This document shows, piece after piece, positions 1,522-35,792 of a stretch of DNA of 64,000 bases. Where the stretch lies: assembly GCF_000292915.1 (NCBI RefSeq), contig NC_018513.1:3224001-3288000 (forward strand), read 5' to 3'. Source of the stretch: Burkholderia cepacia GG4 (GTDB lineage Bacteria > Pseudomonadota > Gammaproteobacteria > Burkholderiales > Burkholderiaceae). The stretch's first letter is position 1. Every line of letters begins with the position of its first letter. The position numbers were made by a program, and so were the translations under genes. Under the pieces are notes generated by a model. That model ran no database searches. It worked only from the letters and a program-made list of their open reading frames with translations, and was not told the origin of the DNA.

Positions 1522-4320
<2,799 letters not shown>

Positions 4321-4539
4321 CGGATCGGATCCTGCGTCGCAGCACCGGCGCCCGGCGCGTAGTGCGCGCCCCGACGCCCGAGCCTCGGCGGCTTAGCGAA
4401 TTAGTGGAATCAAACGAGGAATTTTAGCACGCGGGGACGCCTGCGCCCGTGTCCCGGCCGGACCCGCACCATGCGGGGAAAGGGCGCCGACAACCGCTCG
4501 GACGGCCCGAAAGCCGCGCGTGCGCGGGCCGGCGCGGGG

Positions 4540-4545
4540 TACAAT
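4540..4545 (+). promoter_or_regulatory. candidate -10 of the DUF721 gene
   Basis: TACAAT, in the context GGTACAATCGGCG, sits 44 bases before the DUF721 start. The same GGTANAATNG context occurs before rpe and ychF in this window. No good -35 is visible in the GC-rich sequence upstream. Confidence 0.35.
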
Positions 4546-4588
4546 CGGCGTCAACGTCCGCGCGCTTGCGCGCCCGAAGAATGCCTCG

Positions 4589-5068
4589 ATGAATCGATTT
4601 TCCAAGCGTTTCGGCCCGCTCGCCGCGTATCGCCCGCAACCCGTGTCCGAAGTGCTCAACCGCACCGACGCGTTCGCGGCGCTGCGCGCCGGCGTCGAAC
4701 AGGTCGCGTCGCTGCAACGCGACCTCTCCACGCTCCTGCCCGACTACCTGGCGAATCATGTCGAACCGGGCTCCATCAAGGATGGCACCCTGACCCTCTT
4801 TGCCGCGCACAACGCGCTCGCAGCCAGACTGCGGCAGGTCGAGCCGCGGCTGCTCGCCGATCTCCAGAAGCGCGGCTGGCCGGTCGCCGCGCTGCGCGTG
4901 CGCGTCCGTCCGAAGGACGCGCCGCCGCCGCCACATGTAAAGCAGGCGCGGATGACGTCCGTCGGCGCCGCCGCGTTGCGCGACCTCGCCGACCACCTCG
5001 AGCCGTCGCCGCTGCAGGCCGCGCTGGCGCGGATGGCCGCGCGGCACGGCGCGAAATCGCCACGCTGA
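4589..5068 (+). CDS. DUF721 / DciA-like protein
   Basis: A 159-residue protein with the DUF721 fold signature: an N-terminal segment with a hydrophobic, Leu-rich pattern (VASLQRDLSTLLPDYL), then the LTLFAAHNALAARLRQ stretch and a basic region. DUF721 includes DciA, the replicative helicase operator or loader found in bacteria without DnaC, and Burkholderia is expected to use DciA. That role is inferred from the family. I start at MNRFSKRFGPL (4589) because the 23 upstream in-frame codons have no family resemblance. It is the only plus-strand gene in the first 25 kb and converges on lpxC at a shared terminator. Confidence 0.8.
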   Translation: MNRFSKRFGPLAAYRPQPVSEVLNRTDAFAALRAGVEQVASLQRDLSTLLPDYLANHVEPGSIKDGTLTLFAAHNALAARLRQVEPRLLADLQKRGWPVAALRVRVRPKDAPPPPHVKQARMTSVGAAALRDLADHLEPSPLQAALARMAARHGAKSPR

Positions 5069-5094
5069 GCACCGCGCCGACAACGGCCGACCAA

Positions 5095-5125
5095 TAAAAA
5101 AGCGACCCGAAGGTCGCTTTTTTTA
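5095..5125. terminator. bidirectional terminator between DUF721 gene and lpxC
   Basis: Inverted repeat AGCGACC / GGTCGCT with a four-base loop, preceded by six A and followed by seven T. It can act on both strands between the two convergent genes. Confidence 0.85.
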
Positions 5126-5145
5126 TCGCTTGCGCCGGACGCCGG

Positions 5146-6063
5146 TTACGCGAAGGCCGTCTGCGTGTCGAACGCGAAGCCGCTCGGTGCGGACTGCGGA
5201 TCCTCGAACGTGACGATCTCGTACGCGTCTTCGTTCGCGAGCAGTTCGCGCAGCAGCGCGTTGTTCAGCCCGTGCCCCGACTTGTACGCCGTGTACGACG
5301 CCAGCAGCGGATGACCGACCACGTACAGGTCGCCGATCGCGTCGAGCATCTTGTGCTTCACGAACTCGTCGTCGTAGCGCAGCCCGTCGTTGTTCAGGAT
5401 CCGGTATTCGTCGAGCACGATCGCGTTGTCCATGCTGCCGCCGCGTGCGAGGCCCAGCTCGCGCATCATCTCGACTTCATGGGCGAACCCGAACGTGCGC
5501 GCGCGCGCGATCTCGCGCACGTACGACGTGTTCGCAAAGTCGACCTCGAGTTCCTGGCCGGTCTTGTCGACGGCCGGGTGACGGAAGTCGATCGTGAACT
5601 TCAGCTTGAAACCGAAATACGGATCGAGGCGTGCGAACTTGTCGCCGTCGCGGATCTCGACCGGCTTCTTCACCTTGATGAAGCGCTTCGGCGCGTTCTG
5701 CTCCTCGATGCCTGCCGACTGGATCAGGAACACGAAGGACGCGGCGCTGCCGTCCATGATCGGGATTTCCTCGGCCGTCACGTCGACATAGAGGTTGTCG
5801 ATCCCGAGGCCGGCGCACGCCGACATCAGGTGCTCGACGGTCGACACGCGCGCACCATCCTTCTGCAGCACCGACGCGAGCCGCGTGTCGCCGATCGACA
5901 TCGCGGATGCCGGAATGTCGACGGGCGTGGGCAGGTCGACGCGCGAGAAAACGATACCCGTGCCCGGCGCGGCCGGACGGAGCGTCAGTTCAACCTTGCG
6001 GCCCGAGTGGAGACCGATGCCCACGGTCTTCACGATCGATTTGATGGTGCGCTGCTTCAGCAT
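5146..6063 (-). CDS. lpxC: UDP-3-O-acyl-N-acetylglucosamine deacetylase
   Basis: LpxC removes the acetyl group from UDP-3-O-acyl-GlcNAc, the committed step of lipid A synthesis. The 305-residue protein has the zinc ligands expected of the family: His78 in STVEHLM, and the HKMLDAIGD motif near residues 237-245 that supplies a His and an Asp. The ORF is open ten codons further upstream ([10 protein letters not shown]), but the family start is [10 protein letters not shown] at 6063; MKNTMLK at 6075 is a possible alternative. A strong TATAAT lies 56 bases upstream of the start, and an inverted repeat sits in the leader. Confidence 0.96.
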
Positions 6064-6077
6064 GGTGTTCTTCATCT

Positions 6078-28901: not shown

Positions 28902-30977
28902 TCAAATCCGGCCAACTTCCACGAGGCAATCGTAAAACGTCGCCGAATTGCCGAGATCGGTCAGCGCCTGGCTCGTCACTTCGTTCGCGTTCCGGCCGTC
29001 CGCCGACAATTTCTTCCACCAGATCGACAGGCCGACGACGAGACCTTCGCGTGCGCGATCGGTAATTCTCGCCACCGCCTGCATCGATCCGCGGTCGTTG
29101 AAGATGCGTACGACGTCCCCATCCCCGATGCCGCGCGCCGCGGCATCTGCTGGGTGCATGTCGAGGTGCGGCTGGCCTTCCGTGCTGCGCAGGCTGTCCA
29201 CGTTCACGAAGGTGCTGTTCAGGAAATGCCGGGCCGGCGGTGAAATCATCGCGAGCGGATAGCGCGCGGCCAGCTCGGGCGCGGCCTCGGCTGATTCGTA
29301 CGGCGGCAGGTAATCGGGCACCGGATCCATGCCCATCTGCTCGAGTCGCGCGCTGTAGAACTCGCACTTGCCGGACGGCGTGCGGAAGCCGCCGTTCGCG
29401 AAAGGAGCATCCGCCAAATTGAGCTTCAACCAGCCGGCACGCTTCAGGGTGTCCCAGTCGCTGTCGAGCGCCGGATCGTCCCAGCGGAGTGCCGCGCGCG
29501 CGACCTCTTCGTCGCTGTGATAGAGCGCGGGCTCCTCGAGCCCCATGCTGCGCGCGATGCCGCGAAAGATCTCCGTATTCGGTCGCGCCTCTCCCACCGG
29601 GGGAATCGCCGGCAGATTCGCCATCACGTAGGTGTGACCATACGACTTGTGGACGTCGAGATGCTCGAGCTGCGTAGTAGCCGGCAATACAATGTCGGCG
29701 AAATCGACCGTATCTGTCTTGAAGTGCTCGAGAACGACTGTGAACAGGTCTTCGCGTGCGAAACCCGCGGCCACTTTCGACGAGTCCGGCGCGACGGCCA
29801 CCGGATTCGAGTTGTAGACGATCACCGCTTCGACCTTCGGCCCGAAAGTCGCATCGCCCGAATGCAGCAGCGCGTCGCCGATCGCGTTCATGTTGATGAT
29901 GCGCGGCAGCTTGTGCGGCCAGCCGGGCATCAAATCGGGGCGCAGCAGCGCCGCCTGGTTGACCGGTGCGGATTCCGACGACGACAGCAGCAACCCGCCG
30001 GCCCGGTCGCGCCACGCGCCCGTCAGCGCAGGCAGGCTCGCGATTGCGCGCACGGCATTGCCGCCGCCGCGCACGCGCTGCATCCCGTAATTGAGACGGA
30101 TCGATGCCTTGCGGGTCGCGCCGTAACGGCGGGCGAGTTCGATCAATTCGGATGCTTCGATGCCGCAAATCTGCGCGACCCGTTCCGGCGGATAGGAGAG
30201 GGCTCGCGCCTTGAGCGCATCGAAACCCAGCGTATGGTGCTCGATGTAGTCATGATCGAGCAGATCTTCGGTAATCAGCACATACATCATGCCGAGAGCG
30301 AACGCGCCGTCGGTGCCAGGCTTCAGTGCGATGTGCTGATGACACTTCTCCGCCGTCAGCGAGCGATAGGGATCGATTGCGACCAGACGGGCACCGCGAC
30401 GCTTGGCTTCCTGCGCACGCGTCCAGAAATGCAGGCTCGATGCGATCGGATTCGCGCCCCAGATCAGGATCAGTTCGCTCTCCTCGAAATGCTCGAGATG
30501 CATTCCGACGCTTCCGCCATACGTATAACGCAGCCCTGCCGCACCGGCGGCCGCGCAGATCGCGCGCTCGAGCCTGGATGCGCCGAGTTTGTGGAAGAAC
30601 CGCTGCGCGATGCCCTCCCCCTGCACAAGCCCCATCGTTCCCGCATAGCTGTAAGGCACGATCGCCTCCGGCGCACGCGCGGCGATTTCACCGAGGCGGC
30701 GACCGATCTCGTCGAACGCTTCGCTCCAGCTGATCGGCTCGAAGCGGCCTTCCCCCTTCGCACCGACGCGCTTGAGCGGAACGGTGAGACGGTCGGGATG
30801 ATGAACGCGGTCGGCGTATCGGCTGACTTTCGTGCACAACACGCCTTGCGTCGGCGGATGGTCGGGATCGCCCGTGACCTTGATCGCCTTGCCGTTTTCA
30901 ACGGTCACGCGCATTGCGCACGTGTCCGGACAATCGTGTGGGCAAACGGCCCGAGCTATCTGGGTGGCGACGTTCAT
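28902..30977 (-). CDS. molybdopterin oxidoreductase with [4Fe-4S] centre
   Basis: A 691-residue member of the DMSO reductase superfamily (bis-MGD enzymes such as formate dehydrogenases and assimilatory nitrate reductases). The N-terminal cysteine set CPHDCPDTC followed by GVLCTKV near residue 47 binds a 4Fe-4S cluster. The protein continues with the molybdopterin domain (LIWGANPIASSLH) and a C-terminal MGD-binding beta-barrel (YPLAMISPPARHFLNS). A cysteine near residue 140 (RAICAAAG) is a candidate molybdenum ligand. No twin-arginine signal is seen, so it should be cytoplasmic. No electron-transfer subunit or molybdenum gene is adjacent. The substrate is unknown. Confidence 0.85.
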   Translation of the reverse strand: MNVATQIARAVCPHDCPDTCAMRVTVENGKAIKVTGDPDHPPTQGVLCTKVSRYADRVHHPDRLTVPLKRVGAKGEGRFEPISWSEAFDEIGRRLGEIAARAPEAIVPYSYAGTMGLVQGEGIAQRFFHKLGASRLERAICAAAGAAGLRYTYGGSVGMHLEHFEESELILIWGANPIASSLHFWTRAQEAKRRGARLVAIDPYRSLTAEKCHQHIALKPGTDGAFALGMMYVLITEDLLDHDYIEHHTLGFDALKARALSYPPERVAQICGIEASELIELARRYGATRKASIRLNYGMQRVRGGGNAVRAIASLPALTGAWRDRAGGLLLSSSESAPVNQAALLRPDLMPGWPHKLPRIINMNAIGDALLHSGDATFGPKVEAVIVYNSNPVAVAPDSSKVAAGFAREDLFTVVLEHFKTDTVDFADIVLPATTQLEHLDVHKSYGHTYVMANLPAIPPVGEARPNTEIFRGIARSMGLEEPALYHSDEEVARAALRWDDPALDSDWDTLKRAGWLKLNLADAPFANGGFRTPSGKCEFYSARLEQMGMDPVPDYLPPYESAEAAPELAARYPLAMISPPARHFLNSTFVNVDSLRSTEGQPHLDMHPADAAARGIGDGDVVRIFNDRGSMQAVARITDRAREGLVVGLSIWWKKLSADGRNANEVTSQALTDLGNSATFYDCLVEVGRI

Positions 30978-31278
30978 CGTTCTGGATGCGGAAAGCGAGA
31001 TTCGCAGATTTTACGTGGGTGTGCCCAATAAGGCTTCATTTCACGCGGGTTTCCTGCCTGCTTGGCGGAAAAGCGGCAACGGGGAATGGTGAATATCGGC
31101 CCTGGGCCCAGCGTCGAACTGCCGGTGCGGCGATATCGGTGTGGAGTTGGTGAGGGAAAGGCACTGCGTGGCGGCTTCGTCCAGCCGAAACGAATCGCTC
31201 TTGGGCCGAAGAAGATACGAGCGAATGAGCCGGGGGCCGGGGAATGGCTCGGGATGGTGAATTTCGCCGCACCAATGC
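30978..31278. other. non-coding stretch upstream of the oxidoreductase and past the 5S terminator
   Basis: Overlapping 79-84 codon ORFs occur on both strands, but none resembles a known protein and they shadow each other. No tRNA or rRNA sequence is recognisable here. It should hold the promoter of the molybdopterin oxidoreductase gene. Confidence 0.5.
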
Positions 31279-31281
31279 AAA

Positions 31282-31306
31282 AACCCCCGCCTTTCGGGCG
31301 GGGGTT
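31282..31306 (-). terminator. terminator of the 5S rRNA
   Basis: A 10-base perfect stem (AACCCCCGCC / GGCGGGGGTT) with a five-base loop, followed on the minus strand by TTTTT. It starts 14 bases past the end of 5S rRNA, the normal place for an rrn terminator. Confidence 0.9.
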
Positions 31307-31319
31307 CTTGGCTTAGGGA

Positions 31320-31434
31320 GCCTGACGATTACCTACTTTCACACGGGAATCCGCACTATCATCGGCGTAGAGTCGTTTCACGGTCCTGTTCGGGATGGGA
31401 AGGGGTGGGACCGACTCGCTATGGTCATCAGGCA
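31320..31434 (-). rRNA. rrf: 5S ribosomal RNA, unlinked to 16S/23S
   Basis: The minus strand reads TGCCTGATGACCATAGCGAG at the 5' end, with the conserved loop-B and loop-C region CCCATCCCGAACAGGACCGT in the middle. It closes with GTAGGTAATCGTCAGGC, complementary to the 5' end. This is a full-length beta-proteobacterial 5S rRNA of about 113-115 nt. No 23S rRNA precedes it: within 80 bases upstream a DUF4148 coding region begins instead. The ends are placed to within a base or two by helix I pairing. Confidence 0.95.
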
Positions 31435-31511
31435 AAGAGGGTTGTCGCGTTGCTTCGCAGCGCGACCAATCTGGGAAGAAGCAGTAATTTTGAACCCCAA
31501 CCGTCGCAACG
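31435..31511 (-). other. pre-5S spacer remnant
   Basis: Non-coding sequence between the DUF4148 stop and 5S rRNA. On the minus strand it contains a hairpin with GTCGCG / CGCGAC arms and ends in ACAACCCTCTT directly before 5S. This resembles the 23S-5S spacer and processing site of an rrn operon. Its outer 22 bases (31490-31511) recur in inverted orientation at 34742-34763. Confidence 0.6.
31490..31511. repeat. 22-base inverted repeat, left copy
   Basis: Perfect reverse complement of 34742-34763; both flanking bases differ. The core reads TTGAACCCCAACCG on the plus strand. It marks the point where rRNA-spacer-like sequence meets the DUF4148 gene. Confidence 0.85.
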
Positions 31512-31512
31512 C

Positions 31513-31842
31513 TCAATGCCCGAAATAGATCGAACGCTCGGCCGTGCGAATCGCGCTGCGGCGGCCGGACTGCGTTGCGCTGTCGGCGTTGCTGCCGTAA
31601 CCGGATGCTTGCGTATCGGCTGCGACCGCATCGTTGTCGCGAATCTGTCTCAGCGCCGCCTGCAGGTTGTCCGGATAGTTCGGATCGTTCGGGCGGCTCG
31701 GCAGATAGCCGGCCTTCTGGAGCGCGGCCAGCTCCGCACGCACCTGCGCACGCGTCACGGTACTTTCGGCGGCGAATGCCGGCACGGCAGCGGAAGCCGA
31801 CACGGCGACGAGCAGGGCTGCAATCAATTGGGTCTTCATCAT
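31513..31842 (-). CDS. DUF4148 protein, copy 1
   Basis: A 109-residue secreted protein of the DUF4148 family, abundant in Burkholderia and of unknown function. It has a signal peptide (MMKTQLIAALLVAVSASAAV, cleavage after PAFA near residue 24). The conserved TRAQVRAEL motif and the LQKAGYLP...YPDNLQAAL segment follow, and the end is RSIYFGH. The second ATG (M2) is better spaced from GAGG. Two paralogues of the same length lie directly upstream on the same strand. Its stop codon abuts the 22-base repeat that borders the 5S spacer. Confidence 0.85.
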   Translation of the reverse strand: MMKTQLIAALLVAVSASAAVPAFAAESTVTRAQVRAELAALQKAGYLPSRPNDPNYPDNLQAALRQIRDNDAVAADTQASGYGSNADSATQSGRRSAIRTAERSIYFGH

Positions 31843-31916
31843 TTACCTCGATGGAAAAAGGAGTATGCGGAGTGTGAGCGTCGCACGCCGGCAACCGGCG
31901 CCGATCGCGGTTTCGT

Positions 31917-32246
31917 TCAATGGCCGAAGTAGATCGAGCGCTCGGCGACGCGCGTCGCAGGGCGGCTGCCCGATTGCGCGACGGCCGCGGCATCGCTGCC
32001 ATAACCGGACGTCGCCGTATCGGCCGCCACGGTGTCGTTCGCGTGAATACGCGTCAGCGCGGCCTGGAGGTTGTCCGGATAGTGCGGATCGTTCGCGCGG
32101 CCCGGCACATAGCCGGCTTGCTGCAGCTGCACGAGTTCGGCACGTACTTGCGCACGGGTCACGGTGGCTTCACTGGCAAACGCGGGCGCGGCAACGGCAG
32201 CGGACACGGCAACGAGAACGGCAGCGATCAATTGGGTTTTCATCAT
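31917..32246 (-). CDS. DUF4148 protein, copy 2
   Basis: Second of three tandem DUF4148 genes, also 109 residues. It has the same signal peptide type (MMKTQLIAAVLVAVSAAVAA), the TRAQVRAELVQLQQAGYVP motif and the AERSIYFGH end. It is closer to copy 3 than to copy 1 in the signal peptide and in its leader sequence GTCGAGGTGA. It is 74 bases from copy 1. The spacing and separate Shine-Dalgarno sites would allow a single transcript. Confidence 0.85.
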   Translation of the reverse strand: MMKTQLIAAVLVAVSAAVAAPAFASEATVTRAQVRAELVQLQQAGYVPGRANDPHYPDNLQAALTRIHANDTVAADTATSGYGSDAAAVAQSGSRPATRVAERSIYFGH

Positions 32247-32302
32247 TCACCTCGACAGAATCAGTTGGAAAAATGTGGGGTTCAGGCCGGTGCAGGCCGC
32301 GC

Positions 32303-32632
32303 TCAATGACCGAAGTAGATCGACCGCTCGGCCACGCGCACGACCGCGCGTCGGCCCGCTTGCGTCGACGCACTGGCGTCGCCGCCGTAGCCGGCCGTCG
32401 ACGGCGAGTTGGCCACCGCATCGTCGGCCTGGATCTGCGTCAACGCGGCCTGCAGGTTGTCCGGGTAGGTCGCGTCGCTTGCGCGGTTCAGCGCATAGCC
32501 GGTCTTTTCAAGCTGCACGAGCTCGGCGCGCACTTGCGCACGGGTCACGACGGCTTCACTGGCGAAGGCCGGCGCGGCAACGGCAGCGGACACGGCAACG
32601 AGAACGGCGGCGATCAATCGGGTTTTCATCAT
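32303..32632 (-). CDS. DUF4148 protein, copy 3
   Basis: Third tandem DUF4148 gene, 109 residues, with MMKTRLIAAVLVAVSAAVAA as signal peptide. The mature part differs in the middle (LEKTGYALNRASDATYPDNL) but keeps TRAQVRAEL and AERSIYFGH. It is the promoter-proximal copy, 63 bases downstream of ohr on the same strand. Near-identical signal peptides and leaders in copies 2 and 3 point to a recent duplication or gene conversion. Confidence 0.85.
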   Translation of the reverse strand: MMKTRLIAAVLVAVSAAVAAPAFASEAVVTRAQVRAELVQLEKTGYALNRASDATYPDNLQAALTQIQADDAVANSPSTAGYGGDASASTQAGRRAVVRVAERSIYFGH

Positions 32633-32695
32633 TCACCTCGACAAGAAGATGGCAGGACAGTCGGGAGGGCGGCAGCTGGCCGCCCAATGCAATGT

Positions 32696-33118
32696 TCAGA
32701 CGATGCGGATCTCGACATCGATGTTGCCGCGCGTCGCCTTCGAATACGGGCAAGTCTGATGCGCGGTATCGACGATCTGCTGCACGACGTCACGATCGAA
32801 CCCTGGCGCGCTCACGTTCAGGCGGGCCTGCAGGAAGTACGCATTGCCGCCCATGCCGAGGTCGACTTCGGCATCGACTGCGAGGTCGGCCGGCAGCGTC
32901 ACCTTTGCCGCGCGCGCCGCAAGCTGCATCGCGCCGATGAAGCAGGCCGACCAGCCGGCCGCGAACAGCTGTTCCGGATTGGTGCCGGTGCCGGCGCTGC
33001 CCGGCGACGACAGCTGGATGTCGAGGCGGCCGTCGGAACTGCGCGCCGCGCCGTCGCGGCCGCCGGAAGTCGTGTGCGTCTTGCCCGTGTACAGCACTTT
33101 TTCGATCTTGCTCATCAT
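32696..33118 (-). CDS. ohr: organic hydroperoxide resistance protein (OsmC/Ohr family)
   Basis: Ohr is a thiol-dependent peroxidase that detoxifies organic and lipid hydroperoxides. The 140-residue protein begins KIEKVLYTGKTHTTSGGRDG, typical of Ohr rather than OsmC. It has the two active cysteines: one in GWSACFIGAM near residue 60 and one in HQTCPYSKATRGN near residue 124. Two ATGs are adjacent; the second, at 33115, is better spaced from GGAG. Two copies of a TCGCATGCGA palindrome lie upstream, suited to the MarR-family regulator OhrR, but no ohrR gene is next to it. Confidence 0.95.
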   Translation of the reverse strand: MMSKIEKVLYTGKTHTTSGGRDGAARSSDGRLDIQLSSPGSAGTGTNPEQLFAAGWSACFIGAMQLAARAAKVTLPADLAVDAEVDLGMGGNAYFLQARLNVSAPGFDRDVVQQIVDTAHQTCPYSKATRGNIDVEIRIV

Positions 33119-33149
33119 TCACTCCGTCAGGTTTGAAGGTTTTCCTCTG

Positions 33150-33173
33150 ATGCGATTCGATCGCATGCGATGC
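33150..33173. promoter_or_regulatory. candidate OhrR operator 1
   Basis: ATGCGAT and ATCGCAT arms with a three-base spacer (33150-33166), overlapping a perfect ATCGCATGCGAT palindrome (33160-33171). It lies 32 bases upstream of ohr. The assignment to OhrR is by position only. Confidence 0.5.
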
Positions 33174-33210
33174 AGTTTGGTCGAGGCGATCCATCGCGTC
33201 AAGCGGATTC

Positions 33211-33229
33211 GATTAAATCGCATGCGACA
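33211..33229. promoter_or_regulatory. candidate OhrR operator 2
   Basis: GATTAAATCGCATGCGAC repeats the core of operator 1 (both share GATT, then ATCGCATGCGA) with 57-base spacing. It also contains CGATTAAATCG, itself a palindrome. Confidence 0.5.
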
Positions 33230-33388
33230 TTTTGTATTTCAATGTATCTGGATCGTGTACGGCCTTGTGGAGCAAGGCTTTCTGGCGATCACTCCCTTAT
33301 ATTCAAAAGACGAAGCAGGCGGGAAATTTCACGGCGGGCAGGGCAGACGCCCCGTGGACTCGCTGCTGCCTCGGGGGCGACAACCCGG

Positions 33389-33853
33389 TTATGCCGGGCG
33401 GATTTCAGCGATCACGACCAGGATCACGGCCGCGTCGGCCGGCAACTGGTGCTGGGAAAAGGCCGAGCGCGCGTGTCCCGCCTTGTCGCCGAGCACCGCG
33501 GCAAACAGGTCGGACGCACCGTCGATCACGGCCGGCTGACCGTAGAAGCCGTCGGCCGATGCGACGTGTCCCTCGACTCGCACGATGTGATGCAGGCGGT
33601 CGAACCCGCCCAGGTGCCTTCTGATCTGCGCGAGCACGTTCAGCGCGGCGAGCTGCGCCGCGTGACGCCCGTCATCGACGCTCAGCTGTTCGCCGACACG
33701 GCCCGTATAGAAGACCTTGCCGTCGACGAGCGGCAGTTGTCCGGAAACGAACAACAGGTTGCCGGCTTCGCTGACGGCCGTATAGCTGCCAAGCGGTTGC
33801 GGCGGTTCGGGTAGCGTGAAGCCGAGTTCGGCCAGCTTCTGTTCGATCGTCAT
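33389..33853 (-). CDS. RidA/YjgF-family protein
   Basis: A 154-residue member of the RidA (YjgF/YER057c/UK114) family, whose best-known members hydrolyse reactive enamine/imine intermediates. The protein belongs to the longer subgroup with the N-terminal IEQKLAELGFTLPEPPQP. It shows the family pattern NLLFVSGQLPL, LAALNVLAQI and, near the C-terminus, HARSAFSQHQLPADAAV, with the expected substrate-binding Arg. AAGGAG precedes the ATG by seven bases. It is divergent from the broken LysR gene. Its exact substrate is unknown. Confidence 0.85.
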   Translation of the reverse strand: MTIEQKLAELGFTLPEPPQPLGSYTAVSEAGNLLFVSGQLPLVDGKVFYTGRVGEQLSVDDGRHAAQLAALNVLAQIRRHLGGFDRLHHIVRVEGHVASADGFYGQPAVIDGASDLFAAVLGDKAGHARSAFSQHQLPADAAVILVVIAEIRPA

Positions 33854-34229
33854 TGCGTGCTCCTTCGGGGAAGTTTGATTGGGCGGCCGCCGCGCGGAAG
33901 CTTCGCTCGCCAGGGCCTCTGTCAGTCACTCTAGTGATGCGGTCGATGCCGGTAAATATCGTTCGCGCAATTGATTCGACACGCGATGTAACGAATCGCG
34001 CGCGGCACGAAGCGGCGCGAACGCGTGCCGGAGGGTCGTCCGGCGCCGCCTGCCGCGCGCGTCGGTGCGCTGGTTTCGCGCCCGGGATTCATGCACACTC
34101 GCTGCTTCGACTCCCGCGACGCAAGCAACGGGCGCCGGCAGACGGGAAGCCCGATGCCCAATCGCAAGCGCTCGGTGGACTCACCGACTTGAGATCGCGC
34201 CAAGCACCGGAGACAGCAGGAGCGGGCCC
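33854..34229. other. intergenic region between the RidA-family gene and the LysR remnant
   Basis: A 376-base divergent region. The part near 33930-33985 is relatively AT-rich and likely holds promoters. The rest, 34000-34200, is GC-rich with overlapping ORFs on both strands that I cannot assign. No convincing gene was seen. Confidence 0.45.
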
Positions 34230-34741
34230 ATGCAAAGAAAATTCGACGATCTGCTGCTCGGCAGCATCGAGCTGTTCTGCCTGGCGGCCGAACTCGGCAG
34301 CTTCACGCTCGCGGCAGCCGCGGCGAGCGTCACGCCGGCCGCGGTCAGCCGGTCGGTCGCGCGGCTCGAGGAGCGTCTCGGCGTACGCCTGTTCGTACGC
34401 ACGACGCGGCAGATCCGCCTGACCGATTCCGGGCGGCGCTACTTCGAGCAATGCCGTGATGCGCTGTCGCAGCTCGTCGACGCGGAGCGCGAAGCGACGG
34501 GCCAGCAGGCGACCCCGGCGGGCGTGTTGCGCATCAGCATGCCGACGCCGTACGGACACTATCGCGTGCTGCCGCTGCTGCCCGCATTTCGCGAGCAATA
34601 TCCGGACGTACGCGTCGAAACACACCTGAGCAATCGCAACATCGACTTCGCCGAGGAGGGTTTCGACCTGGCGATCCGCGGCCGCGCGCCGGCGGATTCG
34701 AGCCTGGTCGCGCGCAAGCTCGAGGACGCCGAACTCGTCGT

Positions 34742-34763
34742 CGTTGCGACGGTTGGGGTTCAA
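34742..34763. repeat. 22-base inverted repeat, right copy
   Basis: Reverse complement of 31490-31511, exact over 22 bases. It starts in codon 171 of the LysR remnant and spans the point where LysR similarity ends. Confidence 0.85.
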
Positions 34764-34847
34764 CTTCGTGTGCGCCTGGGTCGCTACAACAACCCCGACA
34801 GCACCGCTTCCCTTCCCTCCCGCGCTGCGTTTCCGTTAGCGCGAAAG
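34764..34847 (-). other. stable-RNA leader remnant
   Basis: Sequence downstream of the rRNA-type promoter on the minus strand, starting with CACGCCTC, then a CGCGCT / AGCGCG hairpin and a purine-rich run. I take it as the 5' leader of an rRNA or tRNA transcript; no mature RNA follows. Confidence 0.5.
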
Positions 34848-34910
34848 AGGCGTGATTCTAAGCACCCTGCCCCATCTCCGCAAGCCCCTTTGTGAAAATA
34901 TTTTGAAAAA
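34848..34910 (-). promoter_or_regulatory. rRNA-type promoter with UP element
   Basis: On the minus strand: TTGCGG (34878-34883), a 17-base spacer, and TAGAAT (34855-34860), followed by a GC-rich CACGCCTC discriminator of the kind found at stringently controlled rRNA promoters. Upstream, at about -43 to -62, there is an AT-rich UP-like region TTTTTCAAAATATTTTCACA. It points toward the LysR remnant and, 3.4 kb on, the 5S rRNA on the same strand. Confidence 0.7.
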
Positions 34911-34940
34911 GCCCCCGTGCGCTGCCGCGCACGGGGGCTT
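34906..34940 (-). terminator. paaF terminator
   Basis: A 13-base perfect stem (AAGCCCCCGTGCG / CGCACGGGGGCTT) with a six-base loop, followed on the minus strand by TTT. Its U-run merges into the UP region of the rRNA-type promoter. Confidence 0.9.
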
Positions 34941-35015
34941 TGGGTTCGTTGCATCGGCCGATCACCCCGGCGACCGATACCAGTCGCTCGCCAGGCTCCG
35001 CCCGTCGCCGCCGAA

Positions 35016-35792
35016 TCAGCGGTTCTTGAATACCGGCTTCCGCTTCTCGACGAATGCCGCCATCCCCTCCTTCTGGTCCTCCGTCGCGAACAGCGAATGG
35101 AACAGTCGACGCTCGAAATGAACGCCTTCGGCCAGCGTCGTCTCGTATGCGCGGTTCACCGACTCCTTGACCATCATGACCGCCGGCAGCGAAAACTCGG
35201 CAATCGTCGTCGCAGCGGCAATCGCTTCGTCGAGCAACTTGTCGGCCGGCAGCACGCGCGACACGAGCCCGGCTCGCTCCGCCTCGGCCGCGTCCATGAA
35301 GCGCGCGGTCAGGCACATGTCCATGGCCTTCGCCTTCGATACTGCGCGCGGCAGGCGTTGCGTGCCGCCCGCGCCCGGCATGACGCCCAGCTTGATTTCG
35401 GGCTGGCCGAACTTGGCCGTATCTGCCGCGAAGATGATGTCGCACATCATCGCGAGTTCGCAGCCACCACCGAGCGCAAAGCCCGACACGGCGGCAATGA
35501 TCGGCTTGCGGATCTCGCGGATGGTCTCCCAGTTACGCGTGATGTAGTCGCCGCGGTAGACATCCATATAGGAATAGGTCGCCATCATGCCGATGTCGGC
35601 CCCGGCCGCGAACGCCTTTTCGCTGCCCGTCACGATGATCGCGCCGATATCGTCGTCCGCGTCGAACGCTTTCAGCGCAGCGCCCAATTCATCCATCAGC
35701 GCATCGTTCAGCGCGTTCAGCGCCTTCGGACGGTTCAGCGTGACCAGCCCGACTCGTCCACGGGTCTCCACCAGGATGTTCTCGTAAGACAT
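35016..35792 (-). CDS. paaF: enoyl-CoA hydratase (2,3-dehydroadipyl-CoA hydratase, PaaF-like)
   Basis: A 258-residue crotonase-fold enzyme. Both catalytic glutamates of true hydratases are present: Glu in [11 protein letters not shown] and Glu in [16 protein letters not shown]. The oxyanion-hole residues lie in [10 protein letters not shown] and GFALGGGCE. In phenylacetate degradation PaaF hydrates 2,3-dehydroadipyl-CoA. The start has AGGAG seven bases upstream. It diverges from paaN across a palindromic operator. It could equally serve general beta-oxidation; the pathway assignment comes from the neighbours. Confidence 0.85.

Follow-up and report, generated by a model that had tools for sequence, protein, structure and literature searches.

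A coreless ribosomal RNA operon in the genome record of Burkholderia cepacia GG4 is very probably an assembly artefact

Misjoins at ribosomal RNA (rRNA) operons are known from published genomes such as those of Bacillus pumilus SAFR-032 (PMC4924849) and Porphyromonas gingivalis TDC60 (PMC5771137), as described in the accessible parts of these reports. Closure of ribosomal DNA (rDNA) gaps by polymerase chain reaction (PCR) and Sanger sequencing is a practice described in the accessible parts of two others (PMC4301005; PMC5592918). Here we report on an rRNA (rrn) operon in the record of Burkholderia cepacia GG4, which comprises 6.47 Mb in two contigs (C1 and C2). The operon lies in a 64-kb stretch of contig 1, C1:3224001-3288000, which we call the window; coordinates given without a contig name are positions within it. 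Where 16S and 23S rRNA would be expected, this operon has a 3.25-kb block of protein genes. In the record, an identical duplicate of a locus far away on the same contig stands in for the rrn core. Comparison with other sequences suggests that this is very probably a false join made in assembly or gap closing, and that a complete operon is likely present in the cell. We favor this reading because genuine rrn sequence flanks the block, the block matches its source without a single difference, 16S, 23S and 5S are present at this locus in all 26 relatives compared, and two further operons of the record are coreless at contig ends or at a bad join. Among the titles listed on misassembled rrn operons and on the closing of rDNA gaps, none was about this locus.

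The duplicated block and its rrn flanks

The block occupies positions 31502-34751 on the minus strand and is identical at 3250 of 3250 positions to C1:1843785-1847034. The sequence at the rrn locus is thus an exact repeat of one whose native position is 1.4 Mb away. An exact duplicate from elsewhere in the record is what an artefact would be expected to leave as an insert. Flanks at the native locus differ from those around the window copy. A LysR-family gene is whole at the native locus, with its substrate-binding domain covering profile positions 2-208 of 209, while the window copy (34230-34757, plus strand; Pfam) is cut at the junction with the rrn leader and covers only positions 2-85 of 209. 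The block was matched somewhere in the genome at E <= 1e-100 in 33 of 41 genus genomes, our own counted, and the other eight had no match at this threshold.

The remaining genes of the block are copies on the minus strand. Three of them encode DUF4148 proteins (31513-31842, 31917-32246 and 32303-32632; Pfam PF13663, E 3.7e-17, 9.1e-17 and 5.5e-13), one an OsmC-family protein (32696-33118; PF02566, E 5.3e-16) and one a RidA/YjgF-family protein (33389-33853; PF14588, E 2.1e-24). A first-pass annotation of this DNA had named three DUF4148 genes, a RidA-family gene and a truncated LysR gene, and Pfam bears out these calls, with the correction that LysR is on the plus strand. Its ohr gene is the OsmC-family gene; the family is confirmed by PF02566, and the name ohr is that annotation's own. 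No transposase or recombinase was named by Pfam among the six genes of the block, as might have been expected of a mobile element.

On the downstream side of the block is a complete 5S rRNA gene (31320-31432, minus strand; Rfam RF00001, 78.2 bits, model positions 1-120), the sole RNA-family match at gathering score within the window. It is followed by a GC-rich hairpin with a T-run (31280-31316, minus strand), which we read from the sequence as the operon terminator; the same stretch is present behind other 5S genes. It is preceded by the pre-5S spacer of an rrn operon (31433-31492, minus strand), which matches three other operons with 99% identity up to position 31492. The whole of 31280-31492 matches these three operons at 99%, and also a cut 5S at C1:272635. 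The earlier annotation had singled out 31435-31511 for alignment with the flanks of intact rrn operons. Pre-5S sequence derived from an rrn operon stops at 31492; positions 31490-31511 are an inverted 22-nucleotide piece of rrn leader. We also considered 31490-31511 as a normal post-23S spacer or processing stem and rejected this, since operon 1, operon 2 and the start of C2 have a different sequence there.

About 3.3 kb upstream of the 5S, on the same strand, are an rrn P1 promoter and leader. The promoter (34855-34883, minus strand) was recognized by reading the sequence and has a -10 element TAGAAT, a -35 element TTGCGG, a 17-nucleotide spacer and an upstream AT-rich tract; it is found at the same place in four relatives. 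The leader (34741-34864, minus strand) matches those at C2:3003445 (98%) and C1:1298211 (97%). It is cut 11 nucleotides into a motif shared with the block, and the remainder that should precede 16S is absent. The longer stretch 34741-34951 matches operon 1 at C1:264043 with 98% identity, and the leader at the start of C1 matches at 84%. The locus thus has the promoter, leader, and 5S with terminator of a functional operon and lacks 16S and 23S between leader and 5S. No RNA-family match to 16S or 23S was found anywhere in the window, and a transfer RNA (tRNA) search of the window found none. These results agree with the first-pass description, in which protein genes separate a minus-strand rrn promoter and leader from a complete 5S, and 16S, the tRNAs of the internal transcribed spacer (ITS) and 23S are missing. 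That description was to be doubted if the leader matched no rrn operon of the genome; the leader matches operons of the same genome.

As a separate observation, the stretch with terminator, P1 and leader at 34741-34951 is 98% identical over 212 bp to C1:264043-264254 in operon 1, while the same P1 region of four relatives at this locus is only 82-86% identical to that of the window. The closer likeness of the two operons to each other than to the same locus in relatives suggests that they exchanged sequence within the genome.

The same place in relatives

An enoyl-coenzyme A (CoA) hydratase gene (35016-35792, minus strand; Pfam PF00378) is the upstream neighbor of the operon, and all 61 genus genomes, our own counted, gave a match to it. 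We compared the locus in 26 relatives, the subset of 60 assembled in at most seven contigs. Behind the enoyl-CoA hydratase gene, 16S, 23S and 5S follow in order in all 26 (loci L156-L181). In the window, the downstream neighbor of the 5S is a molybdopterin oxidoreductase gene (28902-30977, minus strand; Pfam PF00384). Such a gene is found beyond the 5S in the stretches of 24 of the 26 relatives, and an acyl-CoA ligase gene in 25. The enoyl-CoA hydratase and molybdopterin genes are about 4.0 kb apart in our record (30977 to 35016) and about 6.2 kb apart in the relatives G002 and G011. The 3.25-kb block has no match of 90 bp or more, the length from which matches would be shown, in the rrn neighborhood of any of these 26. 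A search for the rrn/block junction pattern, allowing up to three mismatches, found it in one of 65 genus genomes, namely our own record. A structure that is missing from relatives which agree on another is again what an artefact would be expected to give. We also considered that the block might be ancestral at the rrn site. This was rejected, as the 26 rrn neighborhoods have no match of at least 90 bp, though 33 of 41 genomes have the block somewhere.

Not all operons of the relatives are perfect, since the 23S is interrupted in two of them. In L163 (G058:C1) about 1.2 kb of extra sequence at 4863-6068 could be an inserted element, and in L168 (G009:C2) about 94 bp of extra sequence at 4514-4609 could be an intervening sequence.

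Among named loci, the window's own record not included, the nearest to the enoyl-CoA hydratase protein beside the window operon is in Burkholderia seminalis, with 97% amino-acid identity. A B. seminalis locus (L045) has the start of a 16S, a masked run of N, and then 23S and 5S. In a Paraburkholderia locus (L052) the 16S is present and the contig end cuts inside the 23S. Many contigs of Paraburkholderia, Caballeronia and Cupriavidus (L046-L064 and others) break off within some hundreds of bases beyond this enoyl-CoA hydratase gene. It looks as if an rrn operon has long been adjacent to this gene across Burkholderiaceae, with its 16S seen there in L052.

Other rRNA loci of the record

The whole record contains two 16S, two full 23S and one 23S fragment, and four 5S above the cut-off. 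We counted 16S genes in 28 relatives with at most seven contigs and found at least five in 25 of them and four in the other three; five is a lower bound, because only five candidates were scored per genome. More fragmented relatives mostly have none or one, apart from two exceptions with three and five and one with two, and such low counts are expected from unresolved repeats. C2 begins within a post-23S spacer and ends within an rrn leader, and C1 begins within an rrn leader. The end of C1 adjoins tRNA-Trp and reads as a gene which we take to be tuf.

Behind operon 1, at C1:271.9-272.7 kb, tRNA-Tyr is followed directly by a piece of 23S and a cut 5S (C1:271913-272684; L022:9914-10685). Compared with operon 2, the errors in this 23S piece per 50 alignment columns are 2, 1, 2, 3, 7, 7, 12, 11, 15 and 12, the last block being shorter. 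Of its 55 extra bases, 54 repeat a neighboring base. The piece looks like the raw end of a chromatogram left in the consensus. In three relatives (G011, G055 and G041) the order is tRNA-Tyr, tRNA-Gly, tRNA-Thr and then the stretch that ends C1 in our record. The sequence following the cut 5S and the start of C1 flank a single operon in both G011 and G041; in G055 there is a match on the C1-start side only, and in G011 weaker matches of the same query (65-68%) are also found near the counterpart of operon 1. These comparisons point to a probable large misjoin of contig 1 near 272 kb.

The two other coreless operons of the record sit at contig ends or at a join, so that all three coreless rrn loci, that of the window included, look like assembly ends or joins. 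Other rrn repeats of the record are thus broken or misjoined, as would be expected if the window locus is an artefact. Despite listed values of 100% completeness and 0.06% contamination, the rRNA regions of this record look unreliable, with too few 16S genes, a false-looking duplication and the probable misjoin at about 272 kb of C1.

Operon 2 has a 16S-23S spacer about 150 bp longer than the one in operon 1 (C1:266080-266473; L022:4081-4474). ARAGORN found neither tRNA-Ile nor tRNA-Ala in the spacer of operon 1, and both are present in the counterpart operon of G011, G055 and G041. This may be either a real variant or a further assembly error.

The first-pass annotation had offered two explanations for the missing core. 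One of them, a misjoin at an rrn repeat, gains support from the perfect duplicate, the 26 relatives with 16S, 23S and 5S here, the junction seen in one of 65 genomes, the low 16S count against relatives and the other broken rrn loci. The other, a real gutted operon with captured genes, is not supported, given the same 26 relatives, the complete identity of the block to the locus at 1.4 Mb distance, and the two further rrn breaks or misjoins. It had also been proposed that ohr and the DUF4148 genes are read from the rRNA promoter. Since the junction is most likely not in the cell, such read-through most likely concerns an arrangement that does not exist. On the comparisons made here, the organism most likely has neither a gutted operon nor a duplicate LysR-ridA-ohr-DUF4148 block nor such read-through.

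Inverted leader ends and possible routes

The ends of the block form a perfect 22-nucleotide inverted repeat, TTGAACCCCAACCGTCGCAACG, with its left arm at 31490-31511 (plus strand, the inverted leader piece) and its right arm at 34742-34763 (minus strand, leader in normal orientation). This 22-mer is leader sequence; it is exact in operon 2 and in the operon at the end of C2, has one mismatch in operon 1 and at least four mismatches in the piece at the start of C1. Its 3' 10 nucleotides, CGTCGCAACG, also form the two extreme ends of the native block, where the two occurrences converge. The inner 10 nucleotides of 31490-31511 accordingly belong to the copied block as well, and the piece is joined to the pre-5S spacer with a 3-nucleotide overlap. 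The outer 12 nucleotides are leader sequence and are not found in the native flanks. For this reason, and since Pfam named no transposase or recombinase in the block, we rejected the idea that the repeat marks a mobile element's terminus.

Primer-length inverted ends of which the 3' part (10 of 22 nucleotides) matches the template and the 5' part does not, together with convergent sites at an amplifiable distance (3250 bp), are the marks of a single-primer product. One possible route is that a leader primer of about 22 nucleotides, directed towards 16S, was used in a gap-closing PCR. The 10-nucleotide 3' end of this primer could have primed on both strands of the native LysR locus, which would give a 3.25-kb product carrying the primer at both ends. 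This product would then have been put into the rrn gap, butted against the pre-5S end, and the 22-mer and the pre-5S spacer, overlapping by 3 nucleotides, would have been forced together during assembly. The 10-mer CGTCGCAACG occurs 53 times in the record, and the native pair, spaced 3250 bp apart, is the only convergent pair less than 9.5 kb apart, the window copy aside. If the junction is an artefact, our guess tips only slightly towards this mispriming as its origin; the artefact verdict itself is independent of the primer step.

Another possibility is an artefact made without a leader primer, with the block brought in by a gap-filling program or by a chimaera, be it a clone, a read or an amplification product. 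Amplification chimaeras can also show inverted ends with microhomology, and the apparent raw-read tail near operon 1 indicates that another rrn join of the record was made with poor sequence. By itself, such an origin does not account for the primer length of 22 nucleotides with a 3' end exactly where the native match starts, and we regard it as a tenable but lesser share of the artefact reading.

Several points weigh against our interpretation. Random placement of the 10-mer yields a convergent pair within 5 kb in 39% of cases. The native pair is therefore compatible with the primer model and is not strong evidence, and we dropped the single pair as strong proof of a primer. Mispriming does not account for how the 22-mer came to be fused to the pre-5S spacer. 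The flanks in the window have no indel-rich stretch of their own and no Ns (0 N in the window). The evidence consists of sequence comparison and falls short of proving the junction false. Finally, microhomologies of 11, 10 and 3 nucleotides at the breakpoints would also fit template switching during replication.

Such template switching would make the locus a real and very recent rearrangement of this strain. A fork in the rrn leader would switch to the LysR locus via the 11-nucleotide microhomology, copy 3.25 kb, switch by 10 nucleotides to an inverted leader and lastly switch to the pre-5S spacer, so that one operon out of about five would lose its 16S-23S. Bacteria tolerate the loss of one among several rrn operons, and the flanks are genuine rrn sequence. 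Microhomology is present at every breakpoint, which does not separate this explanation from an artefact. Three switches would be required, however, and there is zero divergence across the 3250 bp. The structure is also absent from the 64 other genus genomes searched, and the other two operons without a core fall at contig ends or at a bad join. We consider such a rearrangement very improbable. If it were true, ridA, ohr and three DUF4148 genes would be placed under an rRNA promoter in a strain-specific manner.

Reading the locus as a false join keeps a tempting and probably false feature out of further work, namely a gene-capturing rrn operon with a lone 5S and with ohr driven by an rRNA promoter. 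Older records could be screened for gap-closing errors in a simple way, by looking for exact duplicates with inverted, primer-length rrn-leader ends.

The closest counterpart of the window locus is the complete operon of the relatives. They share its upstream gene and 5S (26 of 26), its molybdopterin gene (24 of 26) and the P1 region (the four compared), and differ in having 16S, ITS and 23S and no 3.25-kb block. As far as the accessible parts of the reports describe them, SAFR-032 (PMC4924849) and TDC60 (PMC5771137) were likewise finished-looking records with rrn-repeat errors revealed by relatives. Those cases concern stretches that were out of place or misjoined, and operons that were corrected, whereas in GG4 a foreign block with inverted leader ends occupies the position of the core. 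The described closing of rDNA gaps (PMC4301005; PMC5592918) is a practice of the kind we suppose here; the accessible parts of these two reports describe no mispriming product left in a genome, and that step is our own proposal for GG4.

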